Shown here: positions 15,723 through 51,367 of the stretch, piece after piece
Numbering within the stretch: the first letter of the stretch is position 1
Layout: every line of letters starts with the position of its first letter
Assembly (NCBI GenBank): GCA_035236585.1
Contig: CP141128.1
Span: 37,430,684 to 37,494,683 of the forward strand
Direction: 5' to 3'
Source: Warburgia ugandensis
Taxonomy: Eukaryota > Streptophyta > Magnoliopsida > Canellales > Canellaceae
Length of the DNA: 64,000 nucleotides
Translations under genes and position numbers: made by a program
Notes under the pieces: generated by a model
The model's input: only the letters and a program-made list of their open reading frames with translations
The model's database searches: none
Told to the model about the DNA's origin: nothing

Positions 15723-15765
15723 CTGAGATATTGCAACAAGTACAATATCTCAGCAAGCAATGCTT
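15723..15765 (-). other. Paired hairpin module in LTR A1
   Basis: The minus-strand RNA would form AAGC-ATT-GCTT, one G, then an 11-bp perfect stem CTGAGATATTG/CAATATCTCAG around a 9-nt loop. The plus-strand arms are 15,723-15,733 and 15,743-15,753, and the small hairpin is 15,755-15,765. The same module occurs in A2, B and D. Confidence 0.8.
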
Positions 15766-18494
15766 GGTAGGGGATTCAAGAAACATAATAATTGACAAGG
15801 TAATTCCAATACTTCATAATCTCATTATCCTTAAACATACTCTTTACTTTATAAGTTATGTATATCTATATACATACATACCCTTCATGGGTAAACCAGT
15901 TAAATTTGTGAAAGTAGTCAAATATCATTCCCAACTAAGCTGATCAATTCTCTTCCTTTTGAGAATTGAGTATTACTGCTAATCTTATACTGGGAATTTT
16001 CCTTCTTGGGAAATTTTGGTAATATACAATTACCTAGCATTTCATTATGCTATAACATAAGGCATTTCACGATGCCTATTCTCATATGCACCATAGTGCA
16101 AAATAATCAGAAAGGTTGCTATGCTGTAGTCTAATCCGTACTAGCGCGCTCGGATAACTGCCTTGTTCACCATTGATACCATAGTAGAAAATATTACGTC
16201 ACTGCCCGTATGGGGGGGCAAGACTTTCATAGTGGTGGCCTTCCCATAATTGCCACCACCTGACTTTTAGCCTCTCTTATGGCAAGGTATCATCACATCA
16301 TCAAATTTCAAGGAGCGGGTGGCCAAACCCTCATGACTCCTCTAGCAATAGCATTCCCCTAGGCTTATGCCTATTAGAACAAACTCACAAACCTCCAAGC
16401 TTGTACGTAAAATAGATTTCATATATATCAGACCATATGTCTGTTTCCTTGGGGCTGAAATATTTTCTAGTTCCCTATTCACTTATAGTTTAGTCCTTAA
16501 CCATCTTACATGTGTTTGGTTGGATCATAAGGTTTTCAAGAGATTTAATACAAGTATTATCATTACTCTTGTCAATATAAGATCATGAGTACAATCATGT
16601 ATGCATTCATCAAATCCTCCTACCTTTAAGGATTGATCTCTTTTCCCCAATCTTCCATGATCCTGACTGATGTATGTAATCTGTACATCCATACATATTG
16701 TCAATATATAAATTATGAACAATCCTATTGATCACTAGATCTGATGATTAGAATGATCTTTAGATCATTCATATCTAAGTATTTTTCTATCTCTAAGTCT
16801 TTGTATGTCCATCTCCTTGATCTTGATCTTTCATAGATCCATTGATTGACAATCTACACATGTTGATAAAGATCAAGGTCCTAGATCTTCTATCATCTAG
16901 TTCTTCCTTCATCTAAGTTCAGTTATTGGATCATCCCTATGGAGGATGATCTTGGTTTTCTTCCTTGAATCATCTTTGATCAAGGGTTTGGATTATCTAA
17001 TCTAGTGAACTATAACAAGTATACTAATAAAAATGCATACTAAGTACAATATAGTGTTCTTATTCTTATTGTTCTTGATCATCCAAGATCTAATGGATCT
17101 TGTTTGATCATCCTTATCTTACTTACTATTTTTATTAGGGTTAGGTAATTTACTAACCTTTTATGCTCTTATTATTATTATTCAACCAGTTAATGTGCTG
17201 GTTGAAGGTAACTTATTCAAGCCTAAATCTAGACTGCTCCTCTTATTTCCAATTGGCTAAGGCTTACTAGCTGAATGGGTAAACACAAAGTGGTTACTTC
17301 AATCATCATGTAAGGAGGCGTTTAGACCTCACAAAAGTCAACGGAAGGTAGGGGAAGAGCGAGGCTCTATTAGACAACCCACTTAACCACCATGTTCATC
17401 ATTCACTAGAATGACCATAGCTCAACCTTTCATAAGGTTCCTATAAGCATGTTTATCCTAAGTACTCTTTCTAATGGATTTTAATTAAGTCCATGAATAT
17501 TTATAATGTCATTCATGGGGTTTATTATTCTTTTCCTAATTTGGGCCAAGGATTTGATAATCCTTATATTGTCCTACTAACTATAGCCCTTACTAATTAA
17601 GTCCAAAGTACTCCATTCTTATTTGTGTAATGAAACTCTATTTTCTCATTAGAATACATTTTTGATGTTTTATGCTCTTTATCTCATAACAAGTAGATCT
17701 ACTAATAACATTTAATCATAAATGAATTATAAATTCTAAGCATAAAACTACATAATTTAACATTTAATGATAATGAGTCAAAGTACTTAAAATAATTAAA
17801 TCTAGCACCTTATGATAACAATGAAATCACATATCATGCTAAAGTCTAAATGTTATACTAGCATGCTTTATAACATAATCATATTTAAAATGCTATTATA
17901 TAAAATGAAACTAATTACATTAACATTTTTAGAAACCTTTACTTATGATCCAACCATTTGATCTTAGATCTTTTCCTTTGATTAAGGATTTTAGTTATAT
18001 TTAGGAAATTTTCTTTATTAAGGTCAAAAGATCATATTGATCTATTTTTGTCATAATCCATCCATGATTTCCTTGGATTTCATCATATCAACATTCATTC
18101 TATCCATCCCAAGGATCTGATCACACTTGATCTCATCGATCAAGTGGGTCCCTTTGTATTTTTAGGGTTTTTCTACCATAATGGGTAGATCCCTTAATAT
18201 ATCTCATATATATATCCACTTAAACCATAGATCTCACATTATTTCAATAGTATATCATTATTAAAATATATTTTCAAGATCTGATCATCTCAGATCTTGA
18301 AAATCTAGGTAATTGGAAACTTGTTTCTTTAATACAGAAAGTTTTTACTGAATAGTATGTCCATTTTATCATTTCATCAGAAAATAGAGGTTTCAAGCTT
18401 TCCATCGCTTCTTTCCGATCTCAATTTGGAGTTCAGATGACTCCAGAATTGGATCTAGAAGTTCATAGTCTTTCCTAGGGCTTAGATTTGATCT

Positions 18495-18650
18495 GGGCCC
18501 AAGGAACGGACCGTCCACAGACGCCGACGGGATGAGCGGAACGCTCGTCGTCCGTGCGCCCGTAAACGGGGATGTCGCTTGGCGCGTCTGCTCATGGATT
18601 TGATGGATGAGCCATCGTCTAGCTTGGGATGATGCCCCACATGCAGCGCA
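18495..18650 (-). other. CpG-rich block in LTR A1
   Basis: A dense run of CG dinucleotides (for example GGACCGTCC, GACGCCGACGGG, CTCGTCGTCCGTGCGCCCG) lies in otherwise AT-rich LTR sequence. It is downstream of the minus-strand TATA box and upstream of the hairpin module. A2 has the same block with an extra partial copy of about 95 bp. Confidence 0.7.
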
Positions 18651-19349
18651 CGCACGGTTTCTGACAGTGTGTCATGTGTGCGTCTTGGGCGCCGTTAGAT
18701 CTGGAGATCGGACAGTCCATTCTAGATCGTCCAATCAATCCTCTCTCAATTGAGGGCCCAAAACGTCTCTGATCATTGTCAAATTCTATCCTAGGGGTTT
18801 TGGACCCTTCTGAATTGATTGGCGCAATTAGAATTTTCATCTGAGCACTCTATCATCCAGAATTAAGGGTTCTGGTATTTACTTTATTTATACCTTTTTA
18901 TTACCAAAATAAATTACAATAAACTAAAAATTACATAAAACAGTATTAAACATCTATAGAAAGTATTTCCACCTACCTGATTGGAGAAAAAACCTCGGTT
19001 ATATGCCCAATTTAAAAAGAATACCTTATTGATGAAGATATGGCCTAAGATCCACCTTTCTTCCAAATTTCCGTTGTTTGAACCGTTGGATCTTGAAATT
19101 TCTTGGGGGTTTTGTAGAATAGATATGTTGGAAATTTTTGGACGGTGGATTTAATCAAATTAGATCTGGAACAGTGTACTTAATTGATTTTAGGTCTCTT
19201 GTTCCAATCTAAAAAGAAACAAATTTAAAAGAGAGATATCTTTTGAAAATTTTGGGTTTTTGGGGAGGGATCTAGGTCTAATTTTTCAGGGAGAGTGAGG
19301 AAAATTTTGTGGGATTTTTATGAGTATTTTTGGAGGATTTTTGGGGTTG

Positions 19350-19359
19350 TATTTATAGG
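19350..19359 (-). promoter_or_regulatory. TATA box of LTR A1
   Basis: The minus strand reads CCTATAAATA, a canonical plant TATA box, followed by an A/C-rich leader (CAACCCCAAAAATCC). The same element stands at 46,687-46,696 in A2 and at 63,734-63,743 (plus strand) in the third A-family LTR, which supports its being the LTR promoter. Confidence 0.65.
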
Positions 19360-20229
19360 CATTTTGGGTCTTTTTTCATGATTATAATATTTTATTTTTT
19401 ATTATTAAATGGCATGAAAGTCTCCCATGCTCCATTTTTTCTTCCCCATGCCCCACTTTTCTTCCCCAAGACCAGCTGATGTTTGTTGACCCATGCTTCA
19501 TGTGGTCTGCTGATAAGATTGGTTTTTGGGTCCCTTGTGGACCCCATGTGGGCCCCACATGGTGTAAAAAGACTGTTTTGCCATTTATGCATAAAATTTT
19601 GGCTTTTATTCCCATGATCTCGGATTTGAGTGTACTTAGTGGCATTGGATTTGTATTTCTCAATACATTCTAAATTTTGATGTCTCATATTTTGATTTTT
19701 GGGAGATTTTGATTTTTGGGTAAAATTACTATTTTACCCCTTTTGTCCAAGAAATGAAGAAACTTAAGGATTTCTCATCCAAATTCAGAATTTGTCATGC
19801 TTACAGTCATTTTGAAGTGTTTGCTAAGTTTAATTTCAATTTTACATGTATTTATGATTTGATTATATTTTTATAAAAAGTATATTCTAAATAACCCTAA
19901 TATTTCAGCTCGAAATATCTGAAACTCAAACTTTATTGATTTTCTCAATCAATTACAAAAATTGGAGTTATTACAGCATGTGGCTAGGGATGGAGTGTTT
20001 CATGGTAGATCAGAGCCAATCTACCACCTTAGGAAGTGAAAATACACAATCACACCTCATTTAGGTAAGATCTACAAAACCCTGTTCTTAATTTGGTGAA
20101 ATTTGTTAGATCCGTGAATTTCTATCCTGGATCTAAATTTAAGGTGATCCAACCATCCATTTCTTAATCTAATCTTATGGATAGGTAGATACATGGTTGA
20201 AAAACCTTGAAATCAACTCATATTGTCGA

Positions 20230-20640
20230 TTTAGACTATAAGACCGATCAAACGAGCTTAGTTGTCTGATTGGGTACTGTTCATACAGTAAAAATTTGAT
20301 ATTTGATCACTAATCAGACACCATAGATGAATTAAACAACCCTAAAATTAATATAATATAGGAGGAATTGATGAATTTAGATGTAAATTGACTGGAAATT
20401 GATCCGACAATCTTAGTCATTTGATTGGGTACTGTTCACATAGTAATTTTGCAATGTCTGATCGACGATCAGACATAGCGAATGAATCCTATGACCCTGA
20501 ATTAGCTAGGATGTGACTAGAATGTTGTAATTTGGATGAAAACCTATCAAGAAACCTTAGTCATTCAATCTGTTACTATTCAAACAGTGACTTGTTGACG
20601 TTGGATCAACGATCAGACCCCACAGATGAGTTTTGATCAT
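20230..20640 (+). repeat. Three-copy degenerate repeat in LTR B
   Basis: Units are recognised by TGATTGGGTACTGTTCA near 20,267 and 20,422, and a diverged copy near 20,565. Each is followed by ACAGTA and a GATCAACGATCAGAC-type motif. Periods are about 157 and 143 bp. Confidence 0.6.
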
Positions 20641-22327
20641 CAATCCAAAGTTGGAAGTGGTCCATCCAACCAATGTACACCCTTAAATTAGTTAAATACA
20701 ACCATGTAATCTGATGGAAAACACAATTTAGATGTCCACACAAATCCAACTGTAGATCTCAACCCTAAACTAAGGACAAACATCCACAAAAGCCTTGATC
20801 GTCCATGTAAAGATCTAATAATGATGATCTAGGCCTTGGATTGCATCGGATTCTTAAATTATGATCATAATTAAATCTAAATATCTCTATGTATGTGAAT
20901 GTATTAAGAAAAGAGTTTTTATGCATTGTATAGATTGAAGGGCACGAGGTCGATCGTGGAGAAGAGGGCAATTAAAGCTAGTGGAATCCAGTGAACGCAT
21001 CTTGCGAGATAGGTGGAAATTTAAGACAACATGTCTAAATAATAAGATGCATGTTCTAAATATGATCATATTTCTAATGATGGATATTATGAAACTAAAA
21101 TGGTATGATTGATATTCGACATGCTTTAAATTGTAATGATGAAAATAATGTTAATTAAAAGAATTGCATATTATAATTGATGCTTATGACTTATACATCA
21201 TGTGTGTGAATTGTGAAATTATGTTTATGGTACATGGGTACCATGTCAGTATTGATGCTATATGAGTCTAGGTTTATAGGATACATCCTTGGTGGATTAT
21301 CACCAAATAAGTGAGGATGTTATTCTTGTTATGAAATATATGAATAGGAAAATCACCTTTTATTATGATTACTTTACATCTAAGCATGGAGGCCTGAGAG
21401 TTTTGTTTTATACAGGCATATATCTGGGGATACTATGCTAGGAAGGTTACAAGAGTTTGGCCACTCGCTCTCTGATATGTGATATATGATGATACCATGC
21501 CTAAAGAGAGACAAAAGGTCAAGTGGCAATTATGGGAAGGGCACCACTGTGATGGTCTATCTCCCTATTTAGACATGACATAGATGATTTTCCACATTTG
21601 GTATCCGTGGAGTATGAAAGCAATTATCCAGGCCTGCTGTACGAATCAGGCTGCATGCATAGTAGTCCTTATATTTGATACACTATGGTGCTTATATGAT
21701 CTAATATGAGATGCCTTATATGATGTGACATGATGATATGCCTTATATTGTTTTTCCAGCGATGGCTAGAGGATTGTGGACCCTGTATAGTGAGGGGCAT
21801 GAGGATTATATTGATATACCAATAGAGTTTGGATGATTATGAACCCCACATGATGAGGGGTATGATTCTAAAACTCAGTATAGTCTGGGAATGTAAATTA
21901 GATTATATTGATTATATTCATAATTTTGTACATCCTTTTAAGATTTTACATATATGTGTACATATGCTATAGGTATATGATTGAGGGCGCAGTTTCATAT
22001 AAGTTTCGTAAGGGTATATGCATGGCTAGAACTGTTATGCAAAGTATGGTTTATGGAATTGGATTATCTTATTTAAATGATAAAGGATAATTGTAAATAC
22101 TTGATTTATTAATGGATTATTGATATTTATGAAATATGCTACCATTTGATTATCAATTGGTTATTAGATTATAAAACATGTTAATACTTGGTTTAAAAAT
22201 GAAGTAAAGAATTATGAAACATATTTTAAATTCAAGTCAATATAAATATTATGAGAATGAATATTCTCAATAATATAAATTAATTAATTCCTAATTAAAT
22301 TTAGCATGCTTCTTAAACTCTCCTACT

Positions 22328-22378
22328 AAGCATAGCTTGCTGAGATATTGTAAATGTTTTATGTTTACAATATTTCAG
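22328..22378 (+). other. Paired hairpin module in LTR B
   Basis: AAGC-ATA-GCTT (22,328-22,338) is followed by G and then a 15-bp stem CTGAGATATTGTAAA (22,340-22,354) paired with TTTACAATATTTCAG (22,364-22,378), with one G-U pair. The layout is identical to A1, A2 and D. Confidence 0.8.
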
Positions 22379-22767
22379 ATACAAATAGATAGGAGAAGAT
22401 GTACACAAGAAGAGGAATTCAGCAACCATACTTCCATGCTCAGGTATACATTTTATGAAAGCTTTTGTATTATGTAGTTAGTCATTTGAATTGTTATATT
22501 GGACATTTAATATAATGTTATAGGGGCCCGTACAAGTGAACCACTAGATAGGTCCTGTTTTGAGAAATGAATTTCTATCTTCTATAAAACTATATATATA
22601 TATATATATATATATAGTGGGAGCATGAAAGTGACGTCTGGTTTTTTGGAAAAATGAATTTCAAAGAAAAATCTTTCGCTGTTTTTGTATTTTAAAATTT
22701 AGAGGCGTGCCAGCTTTTGAAATAAATGCGAAAAATTTTCATGAAAAACCTAGGGTGTCACATTATG

Positions 22768-23780
22768 AGTTTGCCTATGGGATCAACTCGGGCACTCCCA
22801 AATTGTCTCCTACATGGGATATATGCACCATTTTGCTTATAAAATATTTGAAATTTACATGTTATATTTTTAGGTTATAGGTAATAATTATTTCTTTTAT
22901 GTAGCTTATTCAATGATATTTTTGAGGGCAACAGTACACTTTACCAATTCCTTGACCCTGGCATCATTTCTAGAGTGATGGAGTAATGGCCAATAAAGAG
23001 GCTTGTTAAGGATATTTTACCAAACTTTTTTCACTGCTCTCATGAACAGGGTTTAATGATTCCTTACAATTGTAGGTAAGTTTTAAATTTCTTGTTTCCT
23101 TGCCAACTTATTCTATACTTATGAATTGTCAACTTTAATTATAATTCATATGACTATTTATGTAGGGCTCATTGGCTGATGCTCGTTTTGGATGTGCATA
23201 GTGGGCATGCTTTCTTTTTTTATTCTTATCATTCGTAGATCCATCCCACCATCGTTGAAATTATAAATAAGTAAGAATTATTTTTTCATGTATTATTTGT
23301 AGATAAATAATTTGTTATTCATTTATAATGCATTTGAAATTTAAATTTGTAAAGTATGGTATGAATGGGCTAATATGATTGAGACTGTACAACCACCAAA
23401 ACTCACTTAGAAGAATGTCAAGGTATAGAAAATAGTTAATTACTCTATGTTACCACTAATTAAACCTATAATATTACAAATGATATTTATAGATTCTTTT
23501 TGTTGTCCTTATTACACAGTGCCCTAAACAACAATCTAATTGGGAGTGCGAGTACTATGTCTTGAGATACATGAGAACCCTCAAATTCTTGTCTCCCATT
23601 TAAGAAATGTAAGACACTTTTTGCTTTTCATAATCTTATATTTTTCTACAATTTTTATGGATCTAGCTAAAAAATATAGCCTTAAAGAAATATGTTGTAT
23701 TCAGGCTACTGTGCTTTCTGAGTGGGTAAACAAGAAGAGTTACTCCAAAGTAAATCTCAATGAAATATGAACTGAATGGA
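22768..23780 (+). pseudogene. CACTA ORF2, C-terminal part: Ulp1-type (C48) cysteine protease
   Basis: This continues the gene broken by LTR B. Exon-like pieces, separated by AT-rich intron-like gaps, read FEGNSTLYQFLDPGIISRVM (22,925-22,985), AHWLMLVLDVHSGHAFFF (23,167-23,220) and CPKQQSNWECEYYVLRYMRT (23,520-23,579). They match the C48/Ulp1 fold found at the C-terminus of many plant CACTA second proteins. The catalytic His (HW, 23,170-23,172), Asp (23,191-23,193), Gln (23,529-23,531) and Cys (23,547-23,549) can all be seen. Stops occur between and after the pieces, so the protein is not made whole. Family members cleave SUMO-like peptides; activity of transposon versions is not established here. 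Confidence 0.8.
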
Positions 23781-24184
23781 CTGAGTATGTAATAAGTTTC
23801 AATTGTATCACATGGAGTAACTACATGAATGTGAAATACATAATAAAGTTTTTTTTTTTTTCATTGACATGTGTGTGTTATTTTAATTTTTATTATTTTC
23901 TTTGAAATGTATATATTTTTTTAACGATGATGAAGTGAATTTGGAGCTTGTAGATGAAGTGAATTTGCAGTGGTTAGTTTTCAATATATTCATTGAATTA
24001 TATAACTTTTATGAGATGATGAATGAGAGGGTTACTTAGAGTGTGAATAATGCATGTGGATTTACAAATGAAGTGAATGTTGATATTATAGATATTGTAG
24101 TTTCTTTTATAAAGTATTTTCTAGATATATGTGGATGGAGAATGATGAGTTTGGATGTTTTGTACCCATTATGGAAGTGAATGT
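23781..24184. other. CACTA ORF2 3' flank, no further domain recognised
   Basis: This is AT-rich sequence with a T run near 23,850 and repeated GATGAAGTGAATTTG (23,930-23,970). It may encode a decayed acidic tail, but no domain is identifiable. Confidence 0.35.
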
Positions 24185-24189
24185 ATTAG

Positions 24190-24505: not shown

Positions 24506-24572
24506 CAACTTTCCAAGTCAGCTCAATAGAAGTCATTTATTAAGTTAATTCTATTATCACTTTTAACCAAAA

Positions 24573-24597
24573 TTTAAAAGTTCCTTGTGTAGTAGTG
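24573..24597 (-). repeat. CACTA 3' terminal inverted repeat
   Basis: The plus strand ends TTTAAAAGTTCCTTG and then TGTAGTAGTG. Its reverse complement shares the first ten bases and the CTTTTAAA at offset 18 with the 1,565 terminus. The flanking att at 24,598-24,600 compares with aat at 1,562-1,564. Confidence 0.7.
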
Positions 24598-24600
24598 ATT

Positions 24601-28071: not shown

Positions 28072-28844
28072 TAGGCCCCGTTGAGGCTATGACCGAGTGT
28101 CCTCAAGTACCCGGGGATCACACGGCGAGGAGATCGTGGGCATAGTTGGACCCTATGGTTTCATGGACTTATTTGCATTGCATATGGCATGATATGAGGT
28201 TGGTCGACCATACCATGATAGATATCCATGAGTTGAATTCAATGAAGCATCTTATGCATATCATAATGTTATGATATATATGATACTTTCGATTTGGATT
28301 ATGTGATCCTTTAAGTCGTTAGTATTTCGGTTTGACAATGGTTCTTAATTCCGATCTTGAACATGAGTGTTCAACCATGCACATATTTTGAAAGAGCATA
28401 TGATTTTAAACATCTCATGCATTATAAAACTAGTAGTGATGGACTCCTACTGAGTATAGTATATACTCACCCTATCCTTAACATTTTTCAGGATAATTCC
28501 ATCCACAAGTAGAGGACATCTATGTTAGTGCTACGAGCAAGTGAATCAAAAAGGAAACAATTATACATATAAGTAAATTCTCAACCCTTTGGACATGTAG
28601 TTGTATTCATTTACAGTTGGCCTGTGTGTTGTGACTGGATAGATCTGGAAAAAACACTTATGATTTCTAAAGCTTTTCAAAAACTACCTTGGTTGTTGTG
28701 AAAGCAAATGACACTCGGGGTTTTCAAATTGAATTTCAAATAAAAGATTTTTCCACTGCACTGCATTGTTTTTCAAATAAGGATCCCGCCTTAAGAATTT
28801 AGATTTTTCATTTAAAAATGCATGAGAAAACCCGGGTCATCACA
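28072..28844 (+). repeat. 5' LTR of element C, 5'-truncated
   Basis: It aligns with 33,567-34,344 from TAGGCCCCGTTGAGGCTATG onward. Upstream of 28,072 all similarity to the 3' LTR stops abruptly. It keeps the hairpin TGAGTATA-GTA-TATACTCA (28,451-28,469). Confidence 0.9.
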
Positions 28845-28846
28845 GT

Positions 28847-28860
28847 TGGTATCAGAGCCC
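28847..28860 (+). other. tRNA-iMet primer-binding site of element C
   Basis: TGGTATCAGAGCCC lies two bases after the LTR end. It is complementary to the 3' end of plant initiator-Met tRNA, the usual primer of Ty3 chromoviruses and Copia elements. Confidence 0.93.
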
Positions 28861-28889
28861 AGGTTTTATCCTTTCACAACCAAATTCAA

Positions 28890-31690
28890 AGATGTCCAAG
28901 GGTCATAGACAATAGAGAAAATCAAGAAGAAGTAAGATGAAAAGGAGAAGTAGAGATGACTACTTCTATTTGAGGATTACACTATTAATGCTCAAGGCAT
29001 GTCACCATAAATGAATAGGTGAAACACAGCTTGGTTTAACAAATAATTAGGCAGAGGATAGTGCAACCCTTATCCAAAATCTATTCTTAGACGACTTAAG
29101 GATTAAGGATTGTTGTGTGGTGCAAATATGAAAACTCATATATGGATCATATTATGATGAATGAAGATGTTAGTGGACTTGTTAGTAGATTAATCTCACT
29201 AAAGGTGAGAAAATCAAAGAGCCTAGATGCCTATCTTACCATCATAAAGAATATCAGAATATGAGTACACTATCACAAGGATATGATATAAGTATGATAG
29301 GGGATGTAAAAGACAGACTTTGAAGATTTCAATGAGAATCTAAGAGGGATGAGAATGCAAGAGAATATTAGGAAATAACTGTGACTCGTACTAGATCACA
29401 AAGGTATGGAGCCTGAAAGACTTAGCTCAATTTTGGATACCTTAATTGGAGTCTTATGAAGAGTAAAGTGCTATTGAATAATAATTACCTGAGTATTATG
29501 GAGCAAATCAGAAGATGTATACAAGTGACAGATTATGTGAATAAGAGAAACATAACACGAATTTGATAAGGAAATGAATTCGATCGAGCTTTCAAAAGAT
29601 TTTGATGATAATACTAAGGATGATAATAGATTGATCCTAACATAGCATGATCAAAACATCAATGCCATTACTAAGACATTGTATGAATTTTTTTTGAGGC
29701 TATAGGCAATTGAGGATTTCAATGATCTTAAGACAATTTACAATTTCTAAGAAGCATTCAGTTTATCATATCTAATAAGTAAAGGAGTAGATGCAGTATC
29801 GATTATATGCAACAAAGCACATGAAGACATTGATCCAGGTGGACCAAATGAGGATTTTGAAGAAAAGAGAGAAAGAGATAGAGATGTAACTATAAGTATT
29901 CAATGAATATTGAATAATCAAAAGAAGAAGATCATGACTCTATGAAGATACATACAATTCTATCATCTTGAATCCTATAGGAAGGAAGATCAAACAAATG
30001 TAAAGGAATAATACTAGGTGAGTTGATGATCTTATTGTAAAAGAGTATAAGAGAGAGGAAGCATATGGGGTTTAAGACTTTGAGTAGAGTATCGAATTTC
30101 AGAAGATCATGTGACAAGAAATTTTCAAAGAAGAATGGCGACCAACTAGAAGTTAAACTTCTACAAATAGTTTAATATCAATTAGATTCTTATCAGATCC
30201 ATTAGCTTATGAGGAACACCAATGGATATGGTCCATAAAAAGAAAAATTTGGTGATATCCTACCTTGCCACTACATGAGTGAATAAAGTAATTAAGTTGG
30301 GACAGTAACTTGTCCATTTAGCAATAGGGTACCATCAAGGATCAAATTGATATCTTGCTATCATAAATTTGGAAGACCAAAAATCTTAAGACCATTATTT
30401 AGTCATTACCTTTAGAGTATTGTTGACTAAATAAAGGTATCCCACCCTAATTAATCAAGTATGTTAGTATCTATGAGTTAGTAGTCGAAGTTATATACTC
30501 AGAAGGATGTTATAAGTCTTTAGACTTGAGTTTTCTTGGAAAGAAGTACTTGTTAAAATAAGTCAATTGAGGGTATGAGGTCAATTAATGAGAACAGTTG
30601 CATCTGAGATAGGAGCAAAAACAAGAAGTGATCTAAATAAATGGGAAACATTTTTTAAACCTTAATGGCTACCATGACAAGGTAAAGAAATTACTTTGAG
30701 TTTGAAAAATACTGCTGACTTGGATTGAAAAAGAAGGCAAATAAGTATTGATCACTTTAGAGGCCCTTGAGCTTATGACATAGATATATCTGGAAAGAGA
30801 TCAATAGGTAATCAAATAAAGTCTTTCTATGTCTAAGAAAATGTTTATGCTTACCTGAGTATTGTTAAACTTGTTGAGTTAACAACTTCAGTACAATTTG
30901 ATATAATCGCTATTGAAGGAGAATTATTGCTACTATAAGCTAAGTATGAGAAGGCACTTGACGGATAAAATAAGGAGGCACTTGAAAAAAATAAAATTTG
31001 AGGAATTGAGAAAATCACCACTTATGAGGATACCTCCTAACAATACAGACTGCATGGTTGACGAAAAAGCCTTGGTAAAAGATTGAACAATATATTGATA
31101 TAGGGAATGGAAGGAGAAAGTTGAGGCGGCCAGCACATTATAAGGTAAGATTTGATGTTACGTTGCCTTTAGACAAATAGTTAGTTATTATGAGTATATA
31201 CCAAAAATCAATTGAAGGAATTTCTTAAGGACTAACCCTACTACATTGAGTATAGAACTTTTTGGACTTGTGGATGATGGAAGAGATCACTAGATGAAAA
31301 GGATTATCCTATGATATTCAAAATAGGAGAAATAAGATAATATGATCTCAAATAAGTATGGAGTAATTTATACATGAATAAAGAAGCATGATCTTACGAG
31401 GAGACTATCCTATACATGATGAGATAAGTATAGGAATCTAAGGATTTCGAGATAAATGAAGTACCGCTAGAAATCGGTATTGTTAAACTAGCACGTATGA
31501 GAGTATGCATCAGAGTACACAGCAAAAGCGGCTCTTATAGGTGAAGCCTTGTAGGAGGAACAATAGGAATGATAAATTGAGAATGAGCCTAGATTTGATT
31601 CCCAAGGGGGAGAATGCATTCACCAAGAAGTTATCTAAGAGACAAATACCAAGAAGATGATAATTTATGAAATTTAGAGGACAAAATTCT
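28890..31690 (+). pseudogene. Decayed gag-pol region of element C
   Basis: About 2.8 kb lies where 4-5 kb of gag-pol is expected, so large deletions have occurred. There is no open frame of note. A gag-like start may be ATGTCCAAGGGTCATAGACA near 28,891. A reverse-transcriptase-like stretch is visible at about 30,310-30,470 in patchwork frames (GYHQ, then HYLVITFRVLLT, where intact elements read HYEFLVMPFGLTNAP). The tail GAGGACAAAATTCTTTTAAG (31,677-31,696) matches the usual end of Ty3 pol leading into the polypurine tract. Protease and integrase could not be placed. Confidence 0.55.
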
Positions 31691-32133
31691 TTTAAGGTGG
31701 TAATAATATAATGACTCCAATTTTGTAACATTTAAAATCCCAAGATAGCAATGAAAAGTTCAGTTTTTTAAGATAAGGGCATTTTGGTCATTTCACTATT
31801 TACCTTGACTGAACCCAGAAATTTGGCCCTGAAAATGATACCACTAGGTGCATCTCTGAAAAAGGAATCCAACAACACCAAAATCACCCAAAACGGAGTT
31901 AAAATGAGTAAGTTATGGCCTTTGAAGTTCAGGGGCAAAAATATAATTTTTACAAAAAAACAGATTTAGCCTGCAAAACACAGGGGCCCGTTTTGATACG
32001 GGCACCCTTCATCTTCAACCCCCTAGAGGGTTCTAGAATGGCGGTGATTGGAGGAGAAATCACCGCCATTCTGGAGGTTTCTCCACCGCCATTCAAGGGC
32101 GGTGAGAGCCCCCTCCAAAACCCTCTTATAGCT

Positions 32134-32143: not shown

Positions 32144-32394
32144 AGCTCTTGGGCGCCTCTAATGGCAGCCCAACAGCTTGAGAAAAACCCATTTTGGAGA
32201 AGCAACCAAGAGGAGAAACGAGGAGAAAAACCCAGCAACGAGCCAGGTATGCCCAAGATCCCTCAAAACCCTTCTTCACAGTAGTCCTAGGCTCAGTTTC
32301 CTTAAGTTTTTGTATGAAAAATCATGCAAAATAGAGCCCTGGAGATCACCAAGGACCCAGGGACGATCCCTGGGCTGCACTGGTTCGAACCAGG

Positions 32395-32660: not shown

Positions 32661-34344
32661 TTCACTCTTAAAGACTTTATGTACATGTGATACTAAAAAG
32701 CTTATAACTTGAGATCTAGAGCTCCGATTGAAGAGCCACAAAAGGCGTTATGTCCGTGTCGATGACACGGACACACTTAAAATATAAAATCCCTGATCAA
32801 GGCCCAATCAAAGGTGAGCATGACCCTTAGAATAGGATGGTGGCGCGTGGCCACTAGACCTTTGGAAAACTGATGATACCAAGGCCCAATTAGGACCTTA
32901 GGACACCCATAGGCATAGTGATGAACCCTTAATGCCTAAGTAATAAGACCAATCACTCTAAAACCTATAAAAGATAGGCCAAACTAACCTTGATTCCCCA
33001 AACCATGTTCAGGAGCATACAAGGACAAAGGGGTTAGCGCGACCTAACCAGGTAGGTGCTCTATCACTACTAGACTTTTTAAAAGAACCATGATTGTTTT
33101 GAGAATACATGTTTTAAGTATATGATTTGTTTAGCATGACTTAATTCAGCATACATGTGATAAATGCTTTATGCATAGACATGTTTTGTAAATAATTGCA
33201 TATACATTATGCATAGATATGTTTTGCAAATAATTGCATACATTACATGATTTGTGAGCATTAAGTTCTTGCAAAAATTGCATGTCCCTAAGGGTTACCA
33301 AAAGACGCTGGAGTGCCGAGGGCCAGGCAATTGTGAGGGACCCAAAGAGGACAGGTTTTGAAAAAAGAGAGGTTTTCACTTGTTTGATCTGATTATGGTT
33401 TGGGCTGATAAGCTCGTGGGGGCTATGCCGAGAGGTTTGGGTTGGCCTCCAGCCTCTACCACTATTGGGTGGATGGGTACCACGCCCAAAAAGGGCAACG
33501 TCCCTACGTCGACTACATGTAGTACAGGGGGCTACCACTGGTGTCACGGCACTGGGTCGACGTGTCATAGGCCCCATTGAGGCTATGACCGAGTGTCCTT
33601 AGGTACCCGGAGACCACACGGGGAGGAGGTCGTGGGCATAGTTGACCCTATGGTTTCGTGGACTTATTTGCATTGCATATGGCATGATATGAGGTTGGTC
33701 AACCATACCATGATAGATATCCATGAGTTGGATTCAATGAAGCATCTTATGCATATCATAATGTTATGATAAATATATATGATACTTTCGATTTGGATTA
33801 TGTGATCCTTTAAGTCGTTAGTATTTCGGTTTGACAATGGTTCTTAATTCCGATCTTGAACATGAGTGTTCAACCATGCGCATATTTTGAAAGAGCATAT
33901 GATTTTAAACATCTCATGCATTATAAAACTAGTAGTGATGGACTCCTACTGAGTATAGTATATACTCACCCTATCCTTAACATTTTTTAGGATAATTCCA
34001 TCCACAAGTAGAGGACATCTATGTTAGTGCTACGAGCAAGTGAATCAAAAAGGAAACAATTATACATGTAAGTAAATTCTCAACCCTTTGGACATGTAAT
34101 TATATTCATTTACAATTGGGCTGTGTGCTGTGATTGGATAGATCTAAGGAAAAACACTTATGATTTCTAAAGCTTTTCAAAAACTACCTTGGTTGTTGTG
34201 AAAGCAAATGACACTCAAGGTTTTCAAATTGAATTTCAAATAAAAGATTTTTTCGCTGCATTGCATTGTTTTTCAAATAGGGATCCCACCTTAGGAATTT
34301 AGATTTTTCATTTAAAAATGCATGAGAAAACCTGGGTCGTCACA

Positions 34345-42069: not shown

Positions 42070-42999
42070 TAAATTGGTGACTCTACTAGGAAAATTTCTA
42101 TTGAGAAATGAAGACAAACTTTTGAGAAAGTCTCTAGTAGAATCTCCTTGCACTGCACTATAATAGGTAGCACTGTGATCATTTCTTTGCATGTATTTTT
42201 CTGTTTGATGTTTTCTATGAAAATTTTCTATTTGGATTTCTGTGTGTTGCATTATAATAGGTAGTATTGTTCTATTTTATTTAGATGTATCTCTTCCATT
42301 TCATAATTTAGTTTTTAGTAATGTTTATTTAGAATGAATTTTTTTCTCTATTTTTTGTAGATGTGTTGTGATTGGTGATGGATGGAATGTGTGAATGGTC
42401 GAATGGAGAAGATGGATGAATTTTTTAGTCCATGGAGGAACATATAAGATTCTTTATAATTCATATGATGTTATGCTAAATTATCATATTACGTTGTGCT
42501 AAATTATCATATGCAAAATCTCAGGGAGATATTGTTGCATTTAAGGCGTCATCATTTCTTTATCCATTTGGTAAAGAAAACCCCTTTTTCTATGTGGTGA
42601 CCCGGCTTTTTGAAACATGATTTGTAAAGTATTTTGAAAGGCAAGGCCCTTAAGAGTGTAAAAAATTTTAGCAAAACAAAGCAGTGGAAATTCTTTTCTT
42701 TAGAACTTGTTTTGAAAACCCAAGTCACCACTTCATACATAACATAAGTACAATTTGTGTACAAAATAAAATTCCATTGAAGGAATATACTTTTATTAAA
42801 CTCCAGGATCCATCCAGTGGTTCACAAGATCTGACCAAATCTAGTACAATACTTGTCCAAATTATATAATCCAAAACTCAAGCTCACCATACAATAAAAC
42901 TCTCAACAAAGAAAAATACATGTCTTCAAGGGTATACCATGAAGATTATTCTCTTCAAGTCTTCTATAGTCTTCAGCTCCTAACTCTCCTTCCCTGTAT

Positions 43000-43042
43000 C
43001 TGAGATATTGCAACAATTACAATATCTCAGCAAGCAATGCTT
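43000..43042 (-). other. Paired hairpin module in LTR A2
   Basis: The stem CTGAGATATTG/CAATATCTCAG lies at 43,000-43,010 and 43,020-43,030. The small hairpin AAGC-AAT-GCTT lies at 43,032-43,042. The loop differs from A1 by one base while the stems are unchanged. Confidence 0.8.
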
Positions 43043-45744
43043 GGTAGGGGATTCAAGAAACATAACATTGACAATGTAATTCCAATACTTCATAATCTCA
43101 TTATCCTTAAACATACTCTTTACTTTGTAAGCTATGTATATCTATATACATACATACCCTTCATGGGTAAACCAGTTAAATTTGTGAAAGTAGTCAAATA
43201 TCATTCCCAACTAAGCTAATCAATTCTCTTCATTTTAAGTATTATAGCTAATCTTATACTGGGAATTTCCCTTCTTGGGAAATATTGGTAATATATAATT
43301 ACCTAGCATTTCATTATGCTATAATATAAGGCATTTCACGATGCCTATTCTCATATGCATCATAGTGCAAAATAATCAGAAAGGTTGCTATGCTGCAGTC
43401 TGATCCGTACTAGCGCGCTCGGATAACTGCCCTGTTCACCACTGATACCACGATGGAAAATATTATGTCACTGCCCATATGGGGGGGCAAGACTTTCATA
43501 GTGGTGGCCTTCCCATAATTGCCACCACCCGACTTTTAGCCTCTCATTGGGCAAGGTATCATCATATCATCAAATTTCAAGGAGCGGGTGGCCAAACCCT
43601 CATAACTCCTCTAGCAATAGCATTCCCCTAGGCTTATGCCTATTAAAACAAACTCACAAGCCTCCAAGCTTGTAGGTAAAATAGATTTCATATATATCAG
43701 ACCATATGTCTGTTTACTTAGGGCTGAAATATTTTCTAGTTCCCTATTCACTTATAGTTTAGTCCTTAACTATCTTATATGTGTTTGGTTGGATCATAAG
43801 GTTTTCAAGACATTTAGTACAAGTATTATCATTACTCTTGTCAACATAAAATCATGAGTACAATCATGTATGCATTCATCAAATCCTCCTACCTTTAAGG
43901 ATTGATCTCTTTTCCCCAATCTTCCATGATCCTGACTGATGTATGTAATCTGTACATCCATACATATTGTCAATATATAAATTATGAACAATCCTATTGA
44001 TCACTAGATCTGATGATTAGAATGATCTTTAGATCATTCATATCTAAGTATTTTTCTATCTCTAAGTCTTTGTATGTCCATCTCCTTGATCTTGATCTTT
44101 CGTAGATCCATTGATTGACAATCTACACATCTTGATAAAGATCAAGTTCCTAGATCTTCTATCATCTAGTTCTTCTTTGATCTAAGTTTAGTTATTGGAT
44201 CATCCCTATGGAGGATGATCTTGGTTTTCTTCCTTGAATCATCTTTGATCAAGGGTTTGGATTATCTAATCTAATGAACTATAACAAATATACTAATAAA
44301 CATGCATACTAAGTACAATATAATGTTCTTATTCTTATTATTCTTGATCATCCAAGATCTAATGGATCTTGTTTGATCATCCTTATCTTACTTACTATTT
44401 TTATTAGGGTTAGGTAATTTACTAACCTTTTATGCTCTTATTATTATTATTCAACCAGTTAATCTGCTGGTTGAAGGTAGCTTATTCAAGCCTAAATCTA
44501 GACTGCTCCTCTTATTTCCAATTGGCTAAGGCTTACTAGCTAAATGGGTGAACACAAAGTGGTTACTTCAATCCTCATGTAAGGAGGCGTTTAGACCTCA
44601 CAAATGTCAAAAAAAGGTAAGGGAAGAGCGAGGCTTTATTTGATAACCCCCCCACTATGTTCATCATTTACTAGAATGACCATAGCTCAACCTTTCATAA
44701 GGTTCCTATAAGCATGTTTACCCTAAGTACTCTTTCTAATGGATTTTAATTAAGTCCATGAATATTTATAATGTCATTCATGGGGTTTATTATTCTTTTC
44801 CTAATTTGGGCCAAGGATATGATAATCCTTATATTGTCCTACTAACTATAGCCCTTACTAATTAAGTCCAAAGTACTCCATTCTTATTTGTGTAAGGAAA
44901 CTCTACTTTCTCATTAGAATACATTTTTGATGTTTTATGCTCTTTATCTCATAACAAGTAAATTTACTAATAACATTCAACCATAAATGAATTATAAATT
45001 TAAAGCATAAAACTACATAATTTAACATTCAATGATAATGAGGCAAGGTACTTAAATTAAATCTAACACCTTATGATAACGATGAAATCACATATCATGC
45101 TAGAGTCTAAATGTTATACTAGCATGCTTTATAACATAATCATATTTAACATGTTATGAAACTAATTACATTAACATTTTTAAAAACCTTTACTTATGAT
45201 CCAACCATTTGATCTTAGATCTTTTCCTTTGATTAAGGATTTTAGTTATATTTAGGGATTTTTCTTTATTAAGGTCAAAAGATCATATTGATCTATTTTT
45301 ATCATAATCCATCCATGATTTCCTTGGATGTCATCATATAAACATTTATTCTTTCCACCCCAAGGATCTGATCACACTTGATCTCATTGATCAAGTGGGT
45401 CCCTTTGTATTTTTTAAGGGTTTTTCTACCATAATGGGTAGATCCCTTAATATATCTCATATATATCCAATTTAACCATAGATCTCACTTTATTTCAGTA
45501 TTATATCATTATTAAAACATGTTTTTAAGATCTAATCATCTCAGATCTTGAAAATCTAGGTAATTGGAAACTTATTTCTTTAATACAGAAAGTTTTTACT
45601 AAATAACATGTCTATTTTATCATTTCATAAGAAAATAGAGGTTTCAAGCTTTCCATAGCTTCTTTCCGATCTCAATTTGGAGTTCAGATGACTCCGAAAT
45701 TGAAGCTGGAAGTTCATAGTCCTTCCTAGGGCTTGGATTTGATC

Positions 45745-45970
45745 TGGGCCCAAGGAACGAACGGCCCAGATTAGTTGGGTGGAATGAACCAAGCAGAACG
45801 AACCAGGCGGGTCGTCAGGTGCGTCTACTCAGATAAATGGATGAAGCGCCCTTGAGAGGCGTCCACAGACGCGGACGGGACAAGCGAAACGCCTGTCGTC
45901 CGTGCGCCTGCCAACGGGTTTTCGTCTGGTGTGTTCACTCGTGGATTTGACGGACGCGCCATCATGTTGT
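45745..45970 (-). other. CpG-rich block in LTR A2
   Basis: CG-dense sequence (GCGTCCACAGACGCGGACGG, CGTCGTCCGTGCGCC). Compared with A1 it has an additional degenerate copy of the GCGTCTRCTCA...GGATGA unit, which accounts for the extra 95 bp. Confidence 0.7.
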
Positions 45971-47289
45971 TTGGAACGACACTCCACATGCAGTACACAC
46001 GCTGTTCCGACGGTGCGTCACGTGTGCGTCTTGGGCGCCATTTGATATGGAGATCGGACAGTCCATTCTGGACCGTCCAATCAATCCTCTTTCAATTGAG
46101 GGCCCAAAACATCTCTGATTTTTATGAAAATTCTACCCTAGGGGTTTTGGACCCTTCTGGATCGATTGGTATAGTTAGATTTTTCATCTGAGCACTCTAT
46201 CATCCATAATTAAGGGTTCTGTTGTTTACTTTATTTTTACTTTTTTATTACCAAAATAAATTACAGTAAAATAAAAATTACATAAAACAATACTAAACAT
46301 CTATGAAAAGGATTTTCACCTACCTAATTGGAGAGAAAACCTCGGTTATATGCCCAATTTAAAAAATACCTTGTTGATGAAGATATGGCCTAAAATCCAC
46401 CTTTCTTGCAAATATCCGATGTTTGAACCGTTGGATCTTGAAATTTCTTCAGGGATTTTGTAGAATAGATATGTTGGGAAGTTTTGGACGGTGAAATTGA
46501 TCAAATTAGATTTGGAACAGAGTTCCTAATTGATTTTAGGTCTCTTGTTCCAATCTAAAAAGAAAAACAAGTTGAAAAGAGATCTAACTCTTGGAAATTT
46601 TGGGTTTTGGGGGAGGGATCTAGATCTAATTTTTTAGGGAGAGTGAAGAGAATTTTGTGGGGATTTTATGAAGATTTTTGGGCTTGTATTTATAGGCATT
46701 TTGGGTCTTTTTTCATGATTATAATATTTTATTTTTTATTATTAAATGGCATGAAAGTCTTCCATGCTCCATTTTTTCTTCCTCATGCCTAATTTTTCTT
46801 CGCCAAGACCAGCTAATGTTTGTTGACCCATGATTCATGTGGGTTGCTGATAAAATTGGTTGTTGGGTCCCTTGTGGGCCCCACATGGTGTAAAAAGACT
46901 GTTTTGCCATTTATGCATAAAATTTTGGGTTTTATTCCCATGATCTAGGATTTGAGTGTACTTAATGGCGTTGGATTCATATTTCTCAATACATTCTAAA
47001 TTTTGATGTCTCATATTTTGATTTTTGGGTAAAATTACTATTTTACCCCTTTTGTCCAAGAAATGAAGAAACATAAGGATTTCTCATCCGAATTCGAAAT
47101 TTGTCATGCTTACAGTCAGTTTGAAGGGTTTGCTGAGTTTAATTTCAATTTTACATGTCTTATGATTTGATTATACTTTTATAAAAAGTATATTTTAAAT
47201 AATCCTAAAATTTCAGCTCGAAATATCTGAAACTCAAACTTTATTGATTCTTCTCAATTAATTACAAAAATTGGGGTTATTACATTCTA

Positions 47290-48530
47290 TCCATAGGAGA
47301 CCCCAATTTGCTAGAGTTGAAAATCCTCAAAGTATACCCAATGTGGAGCCTCAACCAGAAAATAATGCATCCCATGTTGAACCTCTCTTTGTATCATTCC
47401 ATCCAATCTCATTCTTGTGCTTGGATAAGCAACCACACCATGGAAAATTCCTAGCAATCCATAGCCAATCTAACTAGTTCTTGTCAACCAAACCCTCTAC
47501 GAGTTTCATAAATCAAGGCATTAAAGAAACGATTCGATCAATTTTATAAACCGTCAAATTGGTGATTTAATGAGTCATTTTGCTCAAACAGCTCCATTAT
47601 TGTAATTGTTTGACCAGGATTCCCCTAGCCCACTCTTGGACTATTCCTTTCTGAGCTATTATGCCACCTCAAACAACTCAACCCAATCTAGTTTACTAAG
47701 TCCAAATACATACCACCCCTCAAGCTAGCCTCCAACATACCACTCCTTAGCCACATCCATAGGATTATTATGAGTTATGTATAGATCCAAGGGAGATTGA
47801 AATACTAAATTTGGAAGAGGAGTTTAGATTGATAAAAAAGAATATTGGAATGAATCAAAATGCGAGAGAATAGGCTATTAAAGAATTAAGGGAGAAGTGG
47901 AGTAAAGTAGCTTCTGATGGTGATATGTTAAGAGTAGAGGCGGTTGATCTCAATTCATGCAAAAATACCCAAGGATTTCAAATTACCCAATGGCATGGGT
48001 TGTCCAAACTCCCACATTGGCATATTTGTCACACATTTGGCTCAAATTTGGTTTTTCTTCTAATCAATTTGTTCACTTGTTTCAAATGACTCCAAAGATT
48101 AAAGCATTTAACTTGAGTATTATCAAAGGATAAGCATAAACTAAGGTCATGGGATGATAATAGAGAGGCATTTGCCAATTAGTTCAGATACAATCCGTCA
48201 AGAATTAGGAGTCCTTTGGAATTGCTGAAAGTGAAACATAATGAATCATTCTTGGAGTTCATAACCAGGGGGAGGAATAAAGCCCAAAATATTAATAAGT
48301 GTCCTAGTGAACAGGATAAGATTCAAATGCTACTCAATACTCTATTTTTTATCAAGTACGAATTTGTTACCATCAATTTAGGTCACTGACAGAATTAATA
48401 GAGGTTGGATCACATGTTGAGATAGGTTTGCAAAATGGAATACTTCCTTCAACAATAAGAATGAGACTTGGTCAACCAAGTCTCCTAACCCCAAACTCAA
48501 GGAAGACTAGTAGTTGATACCTCTTCTCCT
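47290..48530 (+). pseudogene. Ty3 gag remnant (Tat/Ogre-like)
   Basis: Translation in shifting frames gives KIPKDFKLPNGMGCPNSHI (47,960-48,020), FANQFRYNPSRIRSPLELL (from about 48,174), KVKHNESFLEFITRGRNKAQ, SEQDKIQMLLNTLF and then FRSLTELIEVGSHVEIGLQN (about 48,375-48,440). These match plant Ty3 gag, where the equivalent reads ...NESFKEYAQRWRE...F...L. The protein would form the capsid shell of the retrotransposon particle. Several stops make it non-functional. A2 inserted immediately upstream (TSD at 47,285). A homologous fragment is on the minus strand at 61,600-62,110. Confidence 0.75.
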
Positions 48531-49250
48531 CCTACTCCATCTTCTACATCGACATTTGCTACCAAGAAAGAATTCATCGAGTTTCCCCCATTATTATTCC
48601 TTACCTTGATTTGTTTAAAATTTCTCATGAAAAATAAATGCTTCCCAATAGGCTTACCTTCACTCCTGAACCTGTGAATCTTAAACCCTTTGTGAGTACC
48701 ACTAAGATACTAGCCATACTATTAACAAGAAACACTAGATAACTAGGTGAAATAAAAATTGTATAACAAAAGAAAATTTTGTCTAAAATTTTCTTTGAAT
48801 ACATAATGTTCACCATCACAAAATTCAAGTAATATATTAGTTCCTCCATGGATATAGAATGATCACCATAGTAGAATTCAAGTAAAAGATTAGCTGATCA
48901 CTATTAGATACAAAAGCACCGCCAAGAGATATAGAACTAGGAGGAATAATAGCTCATCTTTCCTTAGATAGAGAACACCACCATAGAGAAACATAACCAT
49001 GACTAGAAAACTAACATCTCATGGATACAGATCACTCACCACCTCAAGTATACAAATCACTCACCACCTTGGGATATAGGTTAGGCACCTCACCACACTT
49101 GAACTCCTCCTAGTGATATGGAAAACACAATGGCTAAGAATCAATCTACACTCTCTCCACACAATGGAAAAAAAAAAAGTCCAATTGATTCAATCTCTAA
49201 CTATTATTTGACTAATCTTGACAGTTACATTGGTGCAATATTGTAATAAG

Positions 49251-49329
<79 letters not shown>

Positions 49330-49439
49330 TCAATCATTTGAAATCAATTAATAGATGTTATGATTTACAAGGTAAGTCTTTACTATTAAGAATTAGTGAA
49401 TCCTGAATGAAGGGCTAGATTTCAAGAGAATTTGTGGTT
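48531..49439. other. Unassigned, with (GA)n microsatellite at 49,255-49,326
   Basis: No domain is recognised. Short repeated phrases of the type CACTCACCACCT occur at 48,960-49,100. The (GA)n run is about 72 bp and uninterrupted; its Arg-Glu open frame is an artefact. Confidence 0.6.
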
Positions 49440-49740
49440 ATCCTTTTACATCCCTCATCAAACGTATAGTGGGTAGAACCTTAAGTTTGTCTTGGAAGTA
49501 TAGTATCCTTCTAATAGTGAGTCCTTCAATGAATCCATCAATGATTTGTTCTACTATAGAAAAAGAGTATACTTGTATAGCTCCTTTAGCAACCTTCCCT
49601 CGAATGAAATGGTAGTCAACCTCTACATGTTTTGTGCTACATGGAATATAGGGTCAGCTACCATATAAATTTCACTAATGTTATCACAAAGTAGGTGATG
49701 TGGTTTGAGATAAGACACACATAAATCTCAAAGAATATTT
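49440..49740 (-). pseudogene. Copia RNase H fragment
   Basis: The minus strand reads LLCDN, then VADPIFH, RLTTISFEG-type residues, GAIQVYSFSIVEQIIDGFIE and GL, in changing frames. This is the C-terminal end of Ty1/Copia pol, which in intact elements reads CDN...NPVFH..TKHIE.D.HF.RE...........QLADIFTKGL. The recognisable order fixes family and strand. It may belong to the same element as the integrase remnant at 53,862-54,950, which is upstream on the same strand. Confidence 0.65.
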
Positions 49741-50836
49741 TCGACTTAACTTAAATCAACAGTAGTTGAAGTAGGGGAGTGATAGTTTGCTCCAATCAAG
49801 GTTTAAAAACTAGGGGATCTAACTCGAGGATCGACCGACCTGGATCAAATAGGTAGGAAACCTCGTTAGATTGGCCAAATAACTTAGTTGATGTCATCAT
49901 AAAATTGACTCAATGAATCGAGTGAGTTGGATTAGAAAAATTAGATGAGTTTTTGAAAGATCACCTAGTTTCTTAGTGACTTGGTAAGTAGAAACATTTT
50001 ACTCCTCTCAACAGATGACAGTGAACAAGAGGACTTTACATGTGATTTCCTGCTTTGTTAAACAGCAGAAATCTCTAAAATTGATTATACTAGATAGAAG
50101 ACATTGAGAAGAAGAAGAACGAAGTCTTAGATTTCCAATTTTGTTCAAAAGGGCATCAAACAAAGAGCTTAAAGTTTGCTACTCATTGTTCTTGCATGAA
50201 CAGTAACAATATTTTACATATGTTTTAAACTTGAGTTTTTCTTTAATTTATTGTGTTTTTTATTGATCCGAAGGATAGATTATATTCTAATATATTTTAT
50301 AAAGAGTTTTATATAAATTTTTAGTGAGAAATCATAGTTTTAATTATTGAATTTCATTTAAGAAGCTTAACATGTGTTATTGCATATGTTGATAAATATA
50401 GAATGTTTATGATTAAATATTTCACTATTGATTATTTTATGTTCAAATTTAACTGTACCTTTGAATTTCTTGTTATTTAATTGTATTAGATACCAAATTT
50501 TACTAAAAATTTCTATTAGGAAGTCATTGAACTTAGTGGCCAAAGTCAACAACTTAATCATAGGTTACTTTTCTAAAGTATGAAACTTGAATATAAAAAT
50601 AAACCCATTATTTCTTCCTCAATTCTCCCTCACCAACATATTACTACCAAAAACATTCTTCTTCCTCTCATAATTCTTGAAGATGGAAATAAATAAAATT
50701 TATAGTTTATTTTATTTTTTTATACTTGTTGTGTTAGTTTAATTTTGTTTGATTTCTTTCATCTATGCATTATACAAACATGTATTCTTATTTGAAGTGA
50801 GAAATCCATATCTTTGTTTTGTAGGTTTATCATTGC
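49741..50836. other. Unassigned AT-rich sequence
   Basis: No coding domain is seen. If one Copia element spans 49,440-54,950, reverse transcriptase should be encoded near here. I cannot find it, so a deletion or an unrelated insertion is likely. Confidence 0.4.
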
Positions 50837-51322
50837 TATTATGTAACACCCCGGATTTTTAAGACAATTTTTTTTTTTTTTTTATAATGGCAATTTAAAT
50901 AAGAGCATTTGGGATCCCATGAGAAAAGATTTATTTAACATTTTACTAAACCTATCTTAAAACTCCGGGTGTTAATTTTTCCTTTCTCAAAATGACGTAC
51001 ACGTAATTTAAACATAAATAAATAATCCGCGTATAAATCAACGTCAAATAAATAGGCGCCTTTATTTTAAATCAAATAAACATCCAAAAGACAATAATAA
51101 TATGACCCAGGGTCTATCCATCATAACATCCCATATAAATGTCCAATATATGTCCAAAGATCTAAATCACATCCAAATATAAAGTATGCAGTCCATAATA
51201 AAATTCAAATGATAATCCACTCTAATGACTCACATTACTTTCTAAAACTATAGGGAAACTAGTCTTCAGCAGCTCTCAAGGTTTATCAACCGCTTTTCCT
51301 TTCCTGGTGTCGCGCTCGAGAT

Positions 51323-51367
51323 CTAAGGCATTGCAAAACAAAGCAATGCCTCAGCAAGCTATCGCTT
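51323..51367 (-). other. Paired hairpin module in LTR D
   Basis: On the minus strand AAGC-GATA-GCTT and G are followed by a 12-bp stem CTGAGGCATTGC/GCAATGCCTTAG with one G-U pair and an 8-nt loop. Plus-strand arms are 51,323-51,334 and 51,343-51,354; the small hairpin is 51,356-51,367. The stem sequence differs from A and B but pairing is kept. Confidence 0.8.

Follow-up and report, generated by a model that had tools for sequence, protein, structure and literature searches.

In a 64,000-nucleotide stretch of the Warburgia ugandensis genome (hereafter the window; contig CP141128.1, positions 37,430,684 to 37,494,683), long terminal repeats (LTRs) of the retrotransposon families A, B and D carry, on the LTR sense strand, a module of two adjacent hairpins: AAGC-N3/4-GCTT (hairpin 1), a single G, and a second stem opening with CTGAG and closing with YTYAG (hairpin 2). 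Judged from its pattern of variation, the module is very probably a selected RNA fold. Its closing YAG probably represents a structured 3' splice site that precedes a short leader exon within Ty3/gypsy LTRs, a reading that is new here. More tentatively, the fold might act as an RNA switch at the LTR acceptor, whose AG it would pair with the branch region so as to divide transcripts between a spliced gag-pol mRNA without the primer site and intact genomic RNA, and might have been kept as such in many LTR families of one lineage.

Conservation and covariation of the module

A pattern search of the window (AAGC-N3/4-GCTT, G, CTGAG) gave four matches, starting at 15765 (-), 43042 (-), 22328 (+) and 51367 (-), and all four were followed by a stem ending in YTYAG. 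The two-hairpin module that a preliminary description had reported for both A copies (A1 and A2), B and D was thus present at each of them, and the simpler stem described for LTR C was recovered as TGAGTATA-GTA-TATACTCA in both LTRs of element C (Table 1). The same description had called the LTRs otherwise dissimilar. This holds for D, as A and D gave no match and B and D shared only 28 nt at the threshold used, but not for A and B, which share ~390 nt at 72% identity in addition to a 78-nt module stretch and are, on this similarity, related LTRs. Folding energy by itself was only moderately unusual in the window modules, with z-scores of -2.1 (A1), -2.8 (A2), -4.1 (B), -3.0 (D) and -1.8 (C). 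No match to Rfam 15 families was obtained in the window at the gathering score.

In the genome (1.12 Gb in 14 contigs), the core module had 13,891 exact matches and its reversed-pattern control 0. The pattern CCTAC...CTGAGNNATTG...CAATNNCTYAG, which leaves hairpin 1 free, had 9,279 matches (reversed control, 0). The loci and alignment rows used below were taken from the top of the match lists, most of them on contig C1, and form a non-random sample; the 82 modules of the first loci included 69 unique ones, which formed 14 clusters by their flanks.

Compensating changes with pairing kept, as originally claimed, were borne out by the alignments. Among 21 aligned modules (20 distinct), in which hairpin 1 was fixed by the search pattern, 98.8% of cells were paired, three stem-2 pairs varied on both sides, and the covariation score was 0.227 vs 0.142 in shuffled alignments; the number of pairs changing on both sides (3 vs 1.7) was within the shuffles (93/500). 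When hairpin 1 was left free, 38 of 51 distinct sequences, drawn from the first 100 of the 9,279 matches, had AAGC/GCTT and one had AAAC/GTTT, and two variable inner pairs showed all four Watson-Crick combinations. The largest set comprised 74 distinct rows, including 20 loci fetched because their hairpin 1 was AAAC/GTTT. Here, 97.2% of cells were paired, the covariation score was 0.269 vs 0.162 in shuffles, and 108 cells changed on both sides vs 41 +/- 9. Pairs with a both-side change numbered 6 vs 4.8 in shuffles (reached by 118/500), and further pair types 16 vs 15.2 (reached by 182/500).

Compensated changes were also found between close relatives. Loci L062 (A-U, U-A) and L065 (G-C, C-G) had flanks 75-77% identical, indicating that the pair swap occurred inside one family. 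Further, in 17 of the 20 fetched AAAC/GTTT copies the flanks shared 71-87% identity with those of an AAGC/GCTT relative, L069 or L062; by eye, L098 and L099 resembled another family and L096 a lone D copy. The likeness might instead reflect only the shared ancestry of LTRs in a single lineage, with no selection acting on the fold. This would accord with the relatedness of A and B and with the origin of all sequences from one genome, but is highly improbable in view of these compensated changes in both helices and of a core that was nearly invariant in 14 representatives while their upstream flanks were near random.

Genome counts for the arms of hairpin 1 were 13,891 for AAGC/GCTT, 436 for AAGC/GTTT, 292 for AAAC/GCTT (control 1) and 136 for AAAC/GTTT (control 11), the last against ~9 predicted by independence. 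The G.U form thus exceeded its mirror-image A.C form on the sense strand (436 vs 292) in a strand-symmetric context, in copies that are not independent; this excess fits an RNA read from the LTR sense strand, as support and not as proof. A DNA-level palindrome, such as a protein-binding or cruciform site, was considered as an explanation, since stem 2 is a near-perfect inverted repeat of the kind that a dimeric DNA-binding protein would also keep. The G.U excess, the predominance of CTTAG opposite CTGAG among the D copies seen, and the retention of two different adjacent hairpins make it very improbable. Selection on RNA structure, which the preliminary description had suggested, is well supported by the compensated changes in both helices, the core kept amid diverging flanks, and the G.U excess.

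The loop of hairpin 1 was GAAA or GCAA in L067, L069, L082 and similar copies, and GATA, ATA or ATT in other families; the former two presumably follow the GNRA tetraloop rule. At least eight of the 100 listed AAAC/GTTT places, with another loop, lay in a local cluster of AAACTCCGTTTGCTGAG and similar sequences at ~95.03-95.29 Mb of contig C2, as did two more places from another listing. This cluster may be a tandem repeat with no relation to the module. A third helix closing both hairpins was rejected, as pairing between a module's own upstream and downstream sequences averaged -8.4 kcal/mol vs -9.4 kcal/mol for mismatched pairs in 20 representatives. Loci L041 and L044, which have disrupted stems, were left out of this set and of the composition, donor and CTGAG-to-AG sets below.

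Host elements and position of the module

The structural features of the module-bearing elements identify them as Ty3/gypsy LTR retrotransposons. TG...CA ends and a 5-bp target duplication were found for A1 and A2, and a tRNA primer site directly followed the LTR in element C and in the module-bearing loci L004, L036 and L054. The primer site of C is taken here to fit initiator tRNA-Met. Reverse transcriptase, and integrase further on, were encoded behind L004 and L036, and no pol frame of at least 90 aa was found in the piece behind L054. The lineage, judged by eye, is probably that of Tekay-type chromoviruses, which likewise have long LTRs, an initiator-Met-type primer site and reverse transcriptase before integrase, as do Del-type ones. 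The piece behind L004 had by eye a chromodomain-like tail, for which Pfam gave only SH3_Tf2-1 at E <= 0.001; the name Tekay is our assignment from the look of the sequence, with the chromodomain unconfirmed by Pfam.

To avoid a module-based choice, LTR ends were also picked by their primer site. A search for an LTR end plus primer site gave 4,263 sites (control 0), 30 of which, all on C1, were analysed. The module was present on the sense strand in 17 of the 30 (model, E <= 0.01), and a C-type stem was found in 7 of the other 13, located 408-460 nt from the LTR end; 6 of the 30 had neither. In the 11 loci where the plain pattern matched, the module started 431-646 nt from the LTR end. The 17 loci share families with the first set; L103 and L036 are one and the same copy, as are L129 and L084.

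A primer site was absent in all D-family loci shown. In loci such as L034, L037, L040 and L043, the LTR ended ~510-530 nt past the module start and was followed by varied sequence; these may be solo LTRs, 3' LTRs or users of another primer.

A putative splice acceptor and related systems

Base composition changed sharply at the end of hairpin 2. In 16 representatives, the fraction of T upstream was ~0.4, with a dip to 0.26 over hairpin 1, and reached 0.42 in the final 20 nt ahead of the closing YAG; past it, T was 0.17-0.22 for 60 nt with purines at 0.61-0.71, and T was 0.42 again by 100 nt. The step recurred in the 17 primer-site loci, and a change from T-rich to purine-rich sequence at YAG is as at a plant 3' splice site. 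It bears on 3' end formation, in which the fold would present the poly(A) region in the 3' LTR. AATAAA does occur downstream of the module start, at ~237-245 nt in A and ~297-303 nt in D, but in many other module-bearing loci it was absent or elsewhere within 560 nt, and the purine-rich block beside the fold is unlike a plant poly(A) site. This role is very improbable.

Donor-like sites were found near the end of the purine block (a slash before GT marks the predicted exon-intron boundary), including AAG/GTATAC (A), CAG/GTATAC (B), CAG/GTAAGA (L065), CAG/GTATGA (L069) and AAA/GTAAGT (L064). The best donor score 40-130 nt downstream averaged 6.9 in 18 representatives, vs 3.9 +/- 0.4 in dinucleotide-shuffled sequences (0/200), and 6.0 vs 4.2 +/- 0.45 (0/200) in the 17 primer-site loci. 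As a group, a downstream donor bounding the predicted exon was hence found in both sets, and the top-scoring donors in D and B stood at the predicted places. A signal in the leader of the genomic RNA that serves packaging, dimerization or reverse transcription, with incidental splice-like surroundings, would suit the position of the module: in retroviruses and Ty1, such signals are found within the 5' leader ahead of the primer site, as the module is. Such a signal is unlikely, however, as it leaves the composition step and donor enrichment unexplained, and a hairpin-1 loop of 3-4 nt would offer small room for a kissing contact. The step and the donor-like sites point to the module as a splice-acceptor region rather than the polyadenylation, packaging or strand-transfer site proposed in the preliminary description.

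Other possible features of a splice acceptor were identified in and around the module. Plant-type branch sites of the form YTNAY lie 20-50 nt upstream of the acceptor; CTGAG agrees with the YTNA part of this form but not with the final Y. No AG occurred between CTGAG and the terminal AG in 67/67 modules, which are far from independent because the stem is shared. In element C, a conventional CTTAAC...TTTTTYAG stands just past the C-type stem. At the far end of the predicted leader, CAG directly preceded the gag start in L004, L008 and L036, and preceded a changed start codon (ATG to GTG) in L050; it was not found there in L038 and L054, the others of the six loci shown. Among the 30 primer-site loci, CAG directly preceded the gag start in L114 (129 codons), L119 (182 codons) and L121, the last taken as gag only through a start sequence common with L036, and a recognisable gag start was not seen in most of the 30.

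If the closing YAG of hairpin 2 is an acceptor, the message would consist of a cap, a first exon downstream of the TATA box, an LTR intron of 1.7-3.4 kb, a short purine-rich exon of ~60-120 nt and a second intron, which would take out the LTR end and primer site and end at the CAG directly before the gag ATG. The module, which is located ~410-650 nt before the LTR end and the tRNA primer site, would then fall within the transcribed portion of these long LTRs, with CTGAG, 27-35 nt upstream of the acceptor, as a possible branch site in the same stem and its A as the putative branch point. Such predicted splicing would remove upstream ATGs and yield an mRNA unusable as template, with the unspliced RNA left intact. 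Since the stem holds the branch-like CTGAG against the acceptor AG, splicing may be slowed, so that enough full-length RNA would be left for reverse transcription; it is from this arrangement that we infer a possible regulatory role of the fold.

Several observations weigh against the splice-acceptor reading. The donor matrix was a general, unfitted one, and donor scores were individually reached by no more than 10/200 shuffles in only 10 of the 18 representatives and 5 of the 17 primer-site loci. Donors were weak at L029, L030, L050, L076, L102, L116 and L120; in D, second only to A in size among the sampled families, the sole donor is GAT/GTRAGT (L034: 34/200 shuffles); and the predicted first-exon donor of A2 ranks only fourth in that LTR. 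Within the module, the last base of CTGAG is G in place of the usual Y, the outer pair was unpaired in 13 of the 74 rows, and the final G of the acceptor was lost in some copies. L119 and L121 have CAG/ATG but no module by the model. In addition, the genome held 0 matches to junction patterns designed to detect spliced copies of A and D; these patterns depend on identical bases and on the first donor having been guessed correctly.

In the middle of several LTRs, another strong donor-like site with the ending AG/GTAGGT was observed, at position 1000 of the A1 LTR (~18976, -), position 1344 of the C 3' LTR (~33052, +) and position 2236 of the D stretch (~52365, -). Its recurrence in unrelated LTRs suggests that further leader exons are possible.

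In retroviruses such as HIV-1, hairpins located on or close to 3' splice sites may restrain splicing so that genomic RNA remains. The module differs from acceptors of this type in sequence and fold, and its place is within the LTR of a plant element, before gag. A likeness is also found in BARE1, a Ty1/copia element of barley whose RNA is partitioned into spliced molecules that are translated and other molecules that serve replication (PMC3735527). Both are plant LTR retrotransposons with spliced vs replication RNA, although splicing is predicted in the present case. The BARE1 intron is 104 nt long, lies within gag and alters which proteins are made (PMC3735527), whereas the introns predicted here lie in the LTR and leader ahead of gag, the acceptor is folded, and the superfamily is another.

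The module further resembles LTR motifs of retroviruses and animal Metaviridae, in which conservation in long R regions is linked to stem-loops; in that study, models for plant Metaviridae could not be built because of LTR length variation (PMC3601003). In the literature surveyed, consisting largely of papers open without subscription and in part of excerpts, no such fold, leader intron or LTR intron was described for Tekay/Del-type chromoviruses, and no word beginning with "splic" appears in the text of the LORE1 paper (PMC2832683). Papers on enod40 and palindrome targeting (PMC10578108, PMC6911290), considered as related systems, concerned unrelated subjects in the portions available.

If the splice-acceptor reading is true, much of these long LTRs would be intron, and a very abundant plant element group would govern the fate of its RNA by structure. 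The module offers a defined short sequence for testing how retroelements apportion a single transcript to translation and to replication. It also marks LTRs that, in families of this sort, have no other sequence in common.

Features of the window

The coordinates of the LTRs, modules and predicted exons and donors are listed in Table 1.

Table 1. LTRs, modules and predicted splicing features in the window (positions are those of the 64,000-nucleotide stretch).
Feature	Position	Strand	Remarks
LTR A1	15324..19975	-	Solo, 4,652 bp; 5-bp duplication CATGC
Module, A1	15723..15774	-	CCTAC stretch; hairpin 1 15755-15765; G; hairpin 2 15723-15753, ending CTCAG
Predicted leader exon, A1	15661..15722	-	62 nt, purine-rich; then donor-like AAG/GTATAC, GT at 15660-15659; copy is L001
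LTR A2	42593..47284	-	Solo, 4,692 bp; 5-bp duplication TAGAA
Module, A2	43000..43051	-	Hairpin 1 43032-43042; hairpin 2 43000-43030
Predicted leader exon, A2	42938..42999	-	Donor ATG/GTATAC, weaker than AAG of other copies
Candidate first donor, A2 (predicted)	46364..46369	-	AAG/GTATTT, fourth-best donor in that LTR
Module, B	22319..22378	+	Hairpin 1 22328-22338; hairpin 2 22340-22378; LTR end 22762
Predicted leader exon, B	22379..22443	+	65 nt; then CAG/GTATAC (22444), top-scoring donor of the B stretch examined
Module, D	51323..51376	-	Hairpin 1 51356-51367; hairpin 2 51323-51354, ending CTTAG (G.U pair)
Predicted leader exon, D	51234..51322	-	89 nt; then GTGAGT (51233), weak donor context
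Candidate first donor, D (predicted)	53364..53369	-	AAG/GTAAGC, top-scoring within 50851-54600
C-type stem, truncated 5' LTR of C	28451..28469	+	TGAGTATA-GTA-TATACTCA; candidate acceptor CAG ends 28491
Primer site, element C	28847	+	TGGTATCAGAGC, after the 5' LTR end
C-type stem, 3' LTR of C	33950..33968	+	Then CTTAAC and a T-run with TAG ending 33990
Predicted leader exon, C (3' LTR)	33991..34067	+	Then CAT/GTAAGT (34068); 5' LTR has ATAAGTA instead
Candidate first donor, C (predicted)	32247..32252	+	CAG/GTATGC, top-scoring in the 3' LTR, 112 nt after TATA box TATAAATA

Including its CATGC duplication, A1 occupies 15319-19980 directly to the left of the B LTR stretch and in the opposite orientation, and it may for this reason be nested in the LTR of B. 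The internal part of element C (28845-31707) is ~2.9 kb long and had no stop-to-stop frame of 150 aa, which suggests a decayed or non-autonomous copy. An incomplete relative of the A LTR, with 73% identity over ~300 bp, was found at 63712-64000, where it is cut by the window end. The window also contained about six tandem units of 42 bp (58476-58727) and, at 2916-3039 and 7160-7360, AT-rich repeats, both inverted and direct, around TTTAAAGT motifs, possibly a small inverted-repeat transposon.

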